Source: Synechococcus sp. Nb3U1
GTDB taxonomy: Bacteria > Cyanobacteriota > Cyanobacteriia > Thermostichales > Thermostichaceae
Assembly: GCF_021533835.1 (NCBI RefSeq)
Contig: NZ_JAKFYQ010000002.1
Location: forward strand, 620,001 to 684,000
DNA length: 64,000 nucleotides
Reading direction: 5' to 3'
Shown: positions 4,504 through 53,709 of the stretch, in pieces
Numbering within the stretch: position 1 is the first letter of the stretch
How the letters are laid out: each line of letters begins with the position of its first letter
Translations under genes and position numbers: made by a program
Notes under the pieces: generated by a model
What the model saw: the letters and a program-made list of their open reading frames with translations, nothing else
What the model was told of the DNA's origin: nothing
Database searches by the model: none

Positions 4504-5103
4504 TCAGGCAGAGGTGCTCTCCTTGTCCAGTCTGGAGATGGGATCCGGCTCGGTATGGTCGTTGCGCAGATACATCAACCCTGAGAGCAAGGTCAGAACC
4601 ACCGCCAGCCAAAAACAGGGGATCCCCATGGGCCACCCCGGGATCAACAGAGCGATGGCCAGGATTTGTGTCACGGTTTTTGCCTTGCCCCAGAGGTTGG
4701 CCCCGCGAATGTGGGTTTGGTTCACCCGCCAACCGGCAATAGCCAGTTCTCGACCCACAATTAGAAAGACCCCCCAGGCTGGGATCCGACCCAACTCCAG
4801 CAAACTGAGCAGAGGGGCTAACACCAGCAGCTTATCTACCAAGGGATCCAAAAACTTGCCCACATCCGTCACCAACCCATAGCGCCGCGCCAAGTAGCCA
4901 TCCAGCCAGTCGGTGGCAGCCGCCAATAGGAACGCCCAAAAGGCCAATCGTTCTCCTCGCGGGGATCCCCAACTTAATCCCAGCAAAATGAACGGGATCC
5001 CGGCCAAACGCAAGAGGGTAATGGCGGTGGGCAGATTCACCCCTGCCAGTTTGGTTCCCTGGCTTGGAATGCCCTTTTCTACCTTGGCTTCGCCTGAGTT
5101 CAT
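4504..5103 (-). CDS. pgsA: CDP-diacylglycerol--glycerol-3-phosphate 3-phosphatidyltransferase
   Basis: A 199-aa integral membrane enzyme that makes phosphatidylglycerol-phosphate, the precursor of PG, which cyanobacterial photosystems require. The CDP-alcohol phosphotransferase motif DG-x2-AR-x8-G-x3-D-x3-D is read in [12 protein letters not shown] and [11 protein letters not shown] (residues ~65-92), with several hydrophobic helices around it. The N-terminus ([20 protein letters not shown]) adds about 20 polar residues before the first helix. Its ATG overlaps the TGA of the upstream nucleoside hydrolase (ATGA), so translation is likely coupled to a gene that ends in a minisatellite. Confidence 0.96.
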
Positions 5104-6254
5104 AGGACTCCGTCCTGCTGACGCGATTGGACTCCGTCCTGCTGACGCGATTGGACTCCGTCCCGCTGACGCGATTGGACTCCGTCCTGCTGACGCGATT
5201 GGACTCCGTCCCGCTGACGCGATTGGACTCCGTCCCGCTGACGCGATTGGACTCCGTCCCGCTGACGCGATTGGACTCCGTCCCGCTGACGCGATTGGAC
5301 TCCGTCCCGCTGACGCGATTGGTAATGGCCCAATCGCTCCGTGAGCAGATCGTAAAAGCCCTGGGCATCGACCTCAAAAGCCACCTGGACATTGGCAGGC
5401 TGGCCACTGGATCCCCAGCGATCCACCACCGTGCGGCCCAAGTTGAGAGGGCTAGCGGTTTCCACTTCCACATAACAGGGCTTTGTCTGGAACAATTGGG
5501 GTTCGAGCAGATAGGCGATCACACAGGGATCATGCAAGGGCCCACCGGGCAATCCGTAGCGCTCGATGTCGAACTTGCCATAAAAGGTGAGCATGGCAGC
5601 CACCGTCTGCCCCACTTTTGTCCCCAGGGCGCGAATCCGCTCGATTCGCTCTGGGGTGCTGATCACCCGATGCGTCACATTCAATCCCAACATCACCACC
5701 TCTCGGATCCCGGCACTGAGCACCACCTGCGCTGCATGCGGATCCGTGAGGATGTTGAACTCGGCTGCCGGGGTGACATTACCCTCAAAAGCGGATCCCC
5801 CCATGAACACTAGCGTCTCAATATGATCGACAATCTGCGGCTGTTGCACCAAGGCCACTGCCAAGTTGGTCATGGGGCCGAGCAGCGCCAGGGTGACCGG
5901 CTCCGGAGCAGCCATCAAAGTTTGGATGAGATACTGCACTCCATGAGCGGATCCCAGGGGCATTTTCGGCTCCGGCAGATCGGCCCCATCGATCCCAGTT
6001 TTGCCATGCACATGTTCGGCAGTTTCCAAAGGGCGCAACAGCGGACGCGGACAGCCAGCATAGACCCCCATCTCAGGATGACCCGCCAATTCACAAATAC
6101 GCCGGGCATTGTCGCTGGTTTGTTGCACCGAAACATTCCCGGCCACCGTCGTGATGCCGAGCAGTTCCAACTCCGGCGAAGCCATGGCCAACAACAGCGC
6201 CACAGCATCATCTTGGCCAGGGTCACAATCGACAATCAACGGGCGTCGCGCCAT
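5100..6254 (-). CDS. Inosine/uridine-preferring nucleoside hydrolase with a tandem-repeat C-terminal tail
   Basis: A 384-aa protein. The first ~310 residues are a complete IU-type nucleoside hydrolase: the calcium-binding motif VDCDPGQDDAVALLLA (residues ~8-23), LALLGPMTNLA, FMGGSAFEGNVTPAAEFNI and the late metal Asp in GGPLHDPCVIAYLL. It should release ribose from a nucleoside in purine/pyrimidine salvage. After GFYDLLTERLGHY, where family members normally stop, come nine copies of the octapeptide QSRQ(R/Q)DGV and a final Leu. The tail is encoded by a 24-bp minisatellite. The gene's stop overlaps the pgsA start. Confidence 0.93.
   Translation of the reverse strand: MARRPLIVDCDPGQDDAVALLLAMASPELELLGITTVAGNVSVQQTSDNARRICELAGHPEMGVYAGCPRPLLRPLETAEHVHGKTGIDGADLPEPKMPLGSAHGVQYLIQTLMAAPEPVTLALLGPMTNLAVALVQQPQIVDHIETLVFMGGSAFEGNVTPAAEFNILTDPHAAQVVLSAGIREVVMLGLNVTHRVISTPERIERIRALGTKVGQTVAAMLTFYGKFDIERYGLPGGPLHDPCVIAYLLEPQLFQTKPCYVEVETASPLNLGRTVVDRWGSSGQPANVQVAFEVDAQGFYDLLTERLGHYQSRQRDGVQSRQRDGVQSRQRDGVQSRQRDGVQSRQRDGVQSRQQDGVQSRQRDGVQSRQQDGVQSRQQDGVL
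5105..5322. repeat. 24-bp tandem repeat, nine units, coding the nucleoside hydrolase tail
   Basis: Nine direct copies of a 24-bp unit starting GGACTCCGTCC and ending GACGCGATT fill 5105-5320, with the next GG at 5321-5322. Units differ only at one C/T position (CCTGCTG or CCCGCTG), which gives Gln or Arg in the peptide; in plus-strand order the variants are T,T,C,T,C,C,C,C,C. As 24 is a multiple of 3, copy-number change keeps the reading frame. At least four of the six frames are open through the array. Confidence 0.95.
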
Positions 6255-12412: not shown

Positions 12413-12838
12413 CCCCCAACAGGGTTACAGCCCTTTCTCTGGTCACCTAGCCCAGCAAATCTTACCAATCAGTTGCTCATCGCGCCAGCAGGCCGGAGGC
12501 CTTGCAGGGGACGCAAGCGCAGGCATCGTCACAGGAAACCCCGTGAAAGAGCTGTAATTGCTGACTTGGCCTAGCCGTTTGTAACTGGCAAAGGGATCCT
12601 GCGGCGGCGGGATCCCTTTTTGATGGATGGATAAAGGGTAGGAGAAAATTGGCGACAAAGCACAGGTAGCGTTGCTTAATCGAAGATCCAGGAAAAATTT
12701 TCTGTGAACTAGCTACAGATAGTGGCAAATGCCAATATTTCGGGTTTGATTAGGGAAGCACTGGGTGAACGAGTCAGAGGAGCACCCGTGGTGAGGTTAA
12801 GCAAGAACACGGTAGGGCGAACTGAGTGAGGTGTGAGG
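12413..12838. other. Intergenic region between pilO and pilQ
   Basis: A 426-bp spacer with no supported coding sequence. It holds the terminator at 12590-12621 and, after it, about 215 bp that must carry the pilQ promoter. A small palindrome GGCC-gga-GGCC lies near 12490. I cannot assign promoter boxes with confidence. Confidence 0.6.
12590..12621 (+). terminator. Rho-independent-type terminator after pilO
   Basis: A perfect 10-bp stem, AAAGGGATCC (12590-12599) with GGATCCCTTT (12610-12619), closes a G/C-rich 10-nt loop and is followed by further T residues. The stem is built from two copies of the dispersed GGGATCC element. Confidence 0.75.
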
Positions 12839-52202: not shown

Positions 52203-52266
52203 ATGATCAATTCGTCTGCTAGAATCACAAAGCTGACTTTTTAGCCCTAGCTGAGTCACGCCTTTT

Positions 52267-52351
52267 GGAGAGATGGCCGAGTGGTCGAAGGCGCAGCACT
52301 GGAAATGCTGTGTGGGGCAACTCACCGTGGGTTCGAATCCCACTCTCTCCG
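52267..52351 (+). tRNA. tRNA-Ser (GGA anticodon)
   Basis: An 85-nt class II tRNA. Acceptor arms GGAGAGA (52267-) and TCTCTCC pair; the D-arm contains GCCGAGTGGTCGAAGGC; anticodon stem CAGCA/TGCTG with loop CTGGAAA gives anticodon GGA, reading UCC/UCU. A variable arm follows (TGGGGCAACTCACC region) and T-arm GTGGGTTCGAATCCCAC. CCA is not encoded. Confidence 0.96.
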
Positions 52352-52938
52352 TCTCTAATGGGTCGTTGCCGCAACTCACCGTGGGTCAGGCCATCCGGCC
52401 CGCTGAAGCGAACAAATCCCACTCTCTCCGGGATTAAAGTCCTGCCCCTCTTTGGTCTCGATCAAACCCACGCAACCAGAATAGGAAAGCAAGCTTGGCA
52501 GAGCTATCAGGTAGGCAAGCCTTGGGTATTTAGGGTGACCCTCCACTGGCAGGGATCCGACTGTGGAACTCTAGGCTTGTGCCCCTCTTCCATCCAGACC
52601 TCTGATAGGTGTATCCAGATTAATCTCCTCTTGTCTTGCTGCTCAAAAGCGAAGCGAAAACTGCGGTCTCCCTCGAACGCAAGCGCGGCGGATCCCTCGG
52701 CACACTCAGGTTACCTCTCTACAATGAGAAACATCCCGCAACCCATAGCAAAAACTGGGTGGTAGGGGGCTGGCGCTTTTGTTATCCTGTCGCATAAGTT
52801 CCCCCTCTAGCCCGACTCGGGATCCACAGGGGCAATTTGGCAGATTCTGCCCGGCACTCGACGCTGGCGAAACCCGCAACTACTGGCGCGAACGTGGCGT
52901 AGCTGTTATTGGCAGGCTTGGAGAGAGGATATCACCCG
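52352..52938. other. Non-coding stretch after tRNA-Ser
   Basis: 587 bp with no supported protein gene; frames across it look like chance. It holds the interrupted copy of the tRNA 3' end (52371-52430). A TACAAT box at 52719-52724 may be a -10 for the downstream HEAT-repeat gene, without a clear -35. Confidence 0.6.
52371..52430 (+). pseudogene. Partial tRNA-Ser duplicate split by a 28-nt insertion
   Basis: GCAACTCACCGTGGGT (52371-52386) and AATCCCACTCTCTCCG (52415-52430) repeat the variable/T-arm and acceptor end of the tRNA-Ser 20 bp upstream. Between them, 28 nt replace the three T-loop bases TCG. There is no 5' half, so it is not a functional tRNA. Confidence 0.85.
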
Positions 52939-53709
52939 ATGTTTACTTGGCTCTGGACGAAACAGTTTTCTCGAATGAACCAGAGGCTACAGACTTTGGA
53001 GTTAGCTCGTGAGGAAAACCTTTTATCCCCTGATCTGAGCGCTCAAACCCTGCAAGTAGCCCCTGACTTTTGGGAACGGCAACATCAAGCCTTTGTCTAC
53101 GTGGATAAGCAAATTCAGAAGGTGAGCCGTCGCAGCAAGATCTGGGGGGGGATGGCGTTGCTGGCCATTTTGGCGGATGCAGCGTTGGTGGTAGCAGGCC
53201 TGACAGCGATTCAGTCTTTGCAGCAGGTGCGGGCCGACCAGAGCTTAACTCGCATTTCCCAGCAGGCGACTGTCCCGGATCCTGTTCAGCAAGCCTTTGA
53301 TGATCTGGTAGCTCAACTGCCACAGATGAGCGTGGCAGAGCGGTATCGTGCCCTAGAAGCTCTAAATGCCCTCTCGGCTATCTCGATGGCTCGCAGTGGC
53401 AGTGGGTATTACTACGGCAGTTCAGGAATGTCTGTATATGGCTCTGCTCCCACAGCGGCAGCTAACCCTCTCGAGGCTCAACTGCAAACCATTTACCAAC
53501 TGGGTCAAATGCGCTCGGTGGAGGCTGTGCCGGCTTTGGTGACCAAACTTTCGGATGGTGATGCGGCGGTACGGGAGGCGGCAGCTCGTGCCCTGGGGCA
53601 AATCGGGGATCCACGCGCCCTCGATCCGCTGCATAATTTGCTGGCTCAAGAGCCCAATGAATTGGTTCAAGATGCAGCGATTGGTTCGATTGCACAAATG
53701 CTCCGCTGA
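52939..53709 (+). CDS. Membrane-anchored HEAT-repeat protein
   Basis: A 256-aa protein. One transmembrane helix (~75-97, GMALLAILADAALVVAGLTA) divides a helical N-terminal part (MFTWLWTKQFSRMNQRLQTL) from a C-terminal part. The latter ends with HEAT/PBS-lyase-type repeats: QMRSVEAVPALVTKLSDGDA, VREAAARALGQIGDPRALDP, LHNLLAQEPNELVQDAAIGS. A Gly/Ser/Tyr-rich link lies in the middle. Such repeats mediate protein contacts; it lacks obvious lyase residues. Start ATG 52939. Confidence 0.82.
   Translation: MFTWLWTKQFSRMNQRLQTLELAREENLLSPDLSAQTLQVAPDFWERQHQAFVYVDKQIQKVSRRSKIWGGMALLAILADAALVVAGLTAIQSLQQVRADQSLTRISQQATVPDPVQQAFDDLVAQLPQMSVAERYRALEALNALSAISMARSGSGYYYGSSGMSVYGSAPTAAANPLEAQLQTIYQLGQMRSVEAVPALVTKLSDGDAAVREAAARALGQIGDPRALDPLHNLLAQEPNELVQDAAIGSIAQMLR

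Follow-up and report, generated by a model that had tools for sequence, protein, structure and literature searches.

A split duplicate of a tRNA-Ser 3′ end holding a copy of a dispersed 24-nt hairpin repeat

The split duplicate behind tRNA-Ser(GGA)

Behind an intact tRNA-Ser gene lies a second copy of that gene's 3′ end, opened at its T loop by 28 nt. Where did the copy come from, and what entered it? We address this question in a window of 64,000 nucleotides, positions 620001-684000 of contig 2 in a 3.49-Mb genome (G000). The tRNA-Ser(GGA) gene occupies 52267..52351 on the forward strand, and both ARAGORN (52266-52353) and Rfam (52267-52351; RF00005, 63.7 bits) call a single tRNA-Ser there, with no Rfam match at the locus beyond the tRNA itself. 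After a 19-nt linker (52352..52370, +) comes the left arm of the duplicate, composed of the variable arm and the 5′ half of the T stem (52371..52386, +), which copies 52317-52332 exactly (GCAACTCACCGTGGGT, 16 nt). The right arm, composed of the 3′ half of the T stem and the acceptor strand (52415..52430, +), is likewise an exact 16-nt copy of 52336-52351 (AATCCCACTCTCTCCG). The two arms are 3 nt apart in the tRNA (TCG, in the T loop) and 28 nt apart in the duplicate, where they flank the insert CAGGCCATCCGGCCCGCTGAAGCGAACA (52387..52414, +).

The direct repeat of the tRNA's 3′ end consequently amounts to 16 + 16 exact nucleotides, and 32 exact bases in register inside about 80 bp are well past chance. 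The duplicated stretch is the last 35 nt of the tRNA and stops at the exact tRNA end. The complete unit is 79 nt long; the insert exchanges 3 nt for 28, a net gain of 25 that equals one 24-nt unit plus one loop base. A preliminary description of this DNA had reported the split duplicate and its insert, and both are borne out by the exact arms and by the recurrence of the unit in two genomes. Its estimate of about 490 gene-free base pairs after the split copy is also roughly right: the next good gene, encoding a HEAT-repeat protein, opens at about 52909-52941. Within this interval, 52462-52472 is an 11-nt inverted match (91%) to the tRNA's T arm at 52326-52336, either by chance or as another inverted tRNA fragment.

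A dispersed hairpin repeat as the source of the insert

The preliminary description suggested that the locus may be the scar of an excised element or a recombination hotspot. The 28 nt belong to a dispersed repeat of 24 nt: aligned to its GGCC type, they agree at 24 of 25 bases and have one loop insertion, a score that none of 5000 shuffles attained. A 26-mer of the insert, allowed up to three mismatches, had matched this locus only, as if the insert were locus-specific; a local-alignment scan of flanks then exposed the family. As judged from these alignments, the insert is firmly a member of a genus-wide dispersed repeat family.

The repeat has the consensus AAGGACTCCGTCCCGCTGACGCGAACGG and a period of 24, consisting of a 4-bp hairpin (its first eleven bases) and a constant arm. 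Nine stem types occur, such as GGAC/GTCC, GGCC/GGCC, GTGC/GCAC and TCGC/GCGA, and compensating changes on the two sides preserve the pairing. Of 100 copies, located for the most part through the constant arm, 70 have all four stem pairs; random window positions have them in 2.2% of cases. The 70% is somewhat favoured, since some of the searched loci had been retrieved through patterns that included stem bases. The loop in the insert is four nucleotides (ATCC) against the usual three; the only listed copies with a GGCC-ATCC-GGCC hairpin are those in the split units behind tRNA-Ser(GGA).

The search for the insert elsewhere, which the preliminary description had proposed, proved productive. A two-mismatch pattern finds 66 copies in G000 and 91, 32, 246, 301 and 88 in the five congeners compared (G001 to G005, in that order). 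The reversed pattern finds none in any of these six genomes. Our comparison also extended to genomes outside the genus; in each of the 14 included in the repeat counts the same pattern finds 0-8 copies, and the repeat is restricted to the genus, G007 with its few copies excepted. Searched with exact patterns, IMG/VR contained no match to the split unit or to the repeat.

Several sites differ in the presence of the repeat. A tandem array of 9.1 copies (GGACTCCGTCCCGCTGACGCGATT; 5105..5322, +; TRF) is cleanly missing at the orthologous site of G005, the closest congener, and a single copy separates two paralogous stretches of G004, being present in one (L114) and absent from the other (L115). 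These comparisons of orthologous and paralogous sites indicate, at the level of sequence, that the repeat moves. The array lies in frame at the C-terminus of an open reading frame on the reverse strand (5100-6254, MARRPLIVDCDPGQDDAV...), whose product looks like a nucleoside hydrolase by its sequence; it adds about nine SRQRDGVQ octapeptides, which are absent in G005. A solitary copy (GGCCTCCGGCCTGCTGGCGCG) is found at 12481..12501 on the reverse strand. The window also contains, at about 12426-12556, a MITE-like repeat of about 130 bp that matches several further places in G000 and is lacking at the orthologous G005 site.

The locus and its integrase traces in related genomes

The window is rich in GGGATCCC, an octamer reported to dominate in strains JA-3-3Ab and JA-2-3B (PMC4390886). 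From this richness and from the relatives found, we infer that the window and its relatives probably belong to the hot-spring Synechococcus A/B group (Thermostichus). The split unit is present once in G000, once in G004 and twice in tandem in G002; it was not found in G001, G003, G005, G006 or G007. Both G000 and the first of the G002 units have exact arms, and the second G002 unit has decayed in its right arm. Across the three genomes the tRNA-derived arms are identical or nearly so, whereas the linkers, which are not tRNA sequence, barely align. Exact arms beside divergent linkers suggest that the neighbouring tRNA has corrected the arms or recombined with them.

Because the unit is present in G002 and G004 and absent from the others, it is neither an assembly error nor fixed. 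Mis-joining can happen at short repeats beside a tRNA, but the independent assemblies of G002 and G004 (the latter a single 3.05-Mb contig) hold the same unit with linkers of their own, which leaves an assembly error a negligible chance. The other outcome that the preliminary description had set against its proposal, the same arrangement in every relative and no islands, does not hold either, since only some congeners carry the unit. The same distribution bears on the idea that the split copy is a functional RNA, folded and processed along with the tRNA. The exact arms in G000 and in the first G002 unit, together with the small hairpin that the insert can form, would fit such a role. Yet the copy is absent in G001, G003 and G005, one right arm in G002 has decayed, Rfam recognises only the tRNA, and the exactness of the arms is accounted for just as well if the tRNA next to them has acted as a donor in gene conversion. 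We consider a functional RNA highly improbable, and the unit has no evident function.

The surroundings of tRNA-Ser(GGA) are changeable. Its downstream neighbour varies among most congeners. In G005, both the tRNA gene and the unit are missing here, and a DUF2358 gene is joined to the region upstream of the HEAT-repeat gene, with window position 52237 meeting 52602. G005 carries its tRNA-Ser(GGA), with a different acceptor-stem pair, on another contig. That gene stands at the contig's start, which has about 120 bp of repeat in common with the start of another contig; the G005 loci concerned are on contigs C32 and C10.

The integrase evidence comes from two sister species. G003 and G004 contain pieces of one leader together with the start of an integrase gene with an Arm-DNA-bind_3 domain (PF13356 match), and all five matches to this leader or integrase begin just behind the 3′ end of a tRNA-Ser gene: GGA, UGA and CGA in G003, GGA and UGA in G004. 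These truncated copies are located at G003:C44, C28 and C77 and at G004:C1:2510929 and 1798382. At the GGA locus of G004 the split copy is followed immediately by the relic, and a diverged relative of the insert adjoins the truncated integrase in both species. The UGA copy of the leader in G004 has lost its first 226 bp or so, exactly from the tRNA end. Because all five traces start just 3′ of tRNA-Ser, tRNA-Ser 3′ ends are, on sequence grounds, old integrase sites in the genus. The preliminary description's proposal of an integrase site thus stands for the tRNA ends and falls for the insert, which is a small repeat and not the footprint of an island. Its proposed comparison of relatives gave integrase traces in G003 and G004 and no intact island at tRNA-Ser(GGA) in the congeners compared.

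In G000, the leader has no match, and the DNA downstream of the split copy in the window shows no homology to it and no recognisable integrase relic, island or second att copy. Consequently, excision at the window's own locus is a matter of inference only. Two tyrosine recombinase genes are all that G000 keeps, and both lie away from tRNA-Ser genes; the second intact one lies at G000:C1:1945907-1946503 in a 427-aa frame, and most congeners have only one full-length match. Viral relatives of the integrase start occur at 17 loci, none adjoining a tRNA-Ser in the DNA examined, and phage and plasmid matches to the locus are essentially to the tRNA only. A core motif taken from the G003/G004 integrase junction had few matches elsewhere, mostly unrelated, and was dropped. 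So was a simple tRNA-to-tRNA exchange of flanks: the helicase region found downstream in G003 and G004 has its G000 counterpart in inverted orientation about 3.3 kb upstream of tRNA-Ser(CGA), and a relative of the small gene preceding that region lies downstream of tRNA-Ser(CGA), placements that do not show such an exchange.

Origin of the unit and its relation to known systems

We propose, with a probability of roughly 0.78, that the unit is a functionless, displaced tRNA 3′ end whose T loop was hit once by the dispersed repeat, and that recombination later removed or doubled it. An integrative element would have landed at tRNA-Ser, and the displaced end of the earlier tRNA copy would have remained after most of the element was deleted. 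With no tRNA depending on the displaced end any longer, the small repeat could then have settled in its T loop. The rarity of the ATCC loop, known among the listed copies only from this locus, suggests one shared ancestral insertion, which would have preceded the split of G000 and G002 from G004. Recombination between tRNA and copy could subsequently remove or double the unit while leaving the tRNA intact. If the unit is ancestral, three losses are needed (G001, G003 and G005), and for divergent linkers to stand beside near-identical arms, the tRNA must have converted the arms or the events must have been separate and recent. The insertion has no clean empty site, because the sole unsplit version is the tRNA itself.

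The least settled part of this proposal is how the duplicate arose, given that the window has neither a recognisable relic nor a second att copy. As the source of the 3′-end duplicate, turnover of integrative elements is about as probable as plain local duplication and other routes taken together. Local duplication would have copied the tRNA end by slippage or unequal exchange with no integrase involved, the repeat inserting later; it shares the repeat part with our preferred reading and differs only in the origin of the duplicate. Units of about 80 nt do double in tandem in G002, and the window's locus has no integrase relic, but the duplicate ends exactly at the tRNA end, the G004 copy abuts an integrase relic and the linkers are not of tRNA sequence. 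Taken as a whole, this account is plausible, though it falls short of an even chance.

A more doubtful account makes the entire unit an island scar: an integrative element would have had its att site in the 3′ end of tRNA-Ser and, on excising imprecisely, would have left behind both the duplicate and, as element sequence, the 28 nt. It gains from the integrase relics behind tRNA-Ser(GGA), (UGA) and (CGA) in G003 and G004, from the diverged relative of the insert 3′ of the truncated integrase there, and from the 35-nt duplicate, which extends, like an att core, precisely to the end of the tRNA. It loses in that the 28 nt belong to a family whose copies number from tens to hundreds in each genome, the majority far from tRNAs, and in that G000 lacks the integrase leader and any remaining island end. 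It is improbable, though less so than a functional RNA, that the repeat is an actively copied element whose insertion favours stem-loops like the T arm, with displaced tRNA ends at integrase sites as its landing pads. Under the displaced-end reading that we prefer, the locus is a recombination scar, at a site on which mobile elements landed repeatedly in sister species, and the att origin of the window's duplicate has about an even chance of being correct.

One spot joins two kinds of genome wear, the decay of integrases that used tRNA-Ser and the spread of a genus-wide 24-nt hairpin repeat. This repeat can insert in tRNA sequence and can lengthen proteins in eight-residue steps. Its clean presence/absence sites between close species, together with compensatory stem changes, provide a means to study the multiplication of very small repeats.

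Mobile repeats of very small size are a familiar kind, as are att scars at tRNA genes. Cyanobacteria carry small dispersed repeats (SDRs), reportedly described by Elhai et al. (2008, Genome Res. 18:1484). Our repeat is SDR-like: it is about 24-28 nt long, has dispersed copies (66 in G000, 32-301 in congeners, none with the reversed control), varies in presence between relatives, forms tandem arrays and also lies inside genes. It differs in its confinement to the genus, bar the few G007 copies, and in its paired hairpin with a constant arm. In the literature covered, the SDR classes of Elhai et al. apart, we found no description of it, including by full-text search for its sequence.

REP elements, known as GTAG- and CGTC-tagged repeats (PMC3733652), and REPINs (PMC3116915) are similar in being short, palindromic and numerous with compensatory stem changes. 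In contrast, the position-wise consensus of 70 copies of our repeat lacks GTAG, and lacks CGTC too once the stem itself is set aside, its arrays are direct tandems rather than inverted pairs, and it also occurs in reading frames. Compared with the tRNA 3′-end att duplications of tyrosine-integrase islands, the window has no integrase or island, its copies are 19 nt apart and one T loop holds a repeat; what it has in common with them is the 3′ part of a tRNA repeated downstream, with Arm-DNA-bind_3 relics behind the tRNA-Ser genes of sister species.
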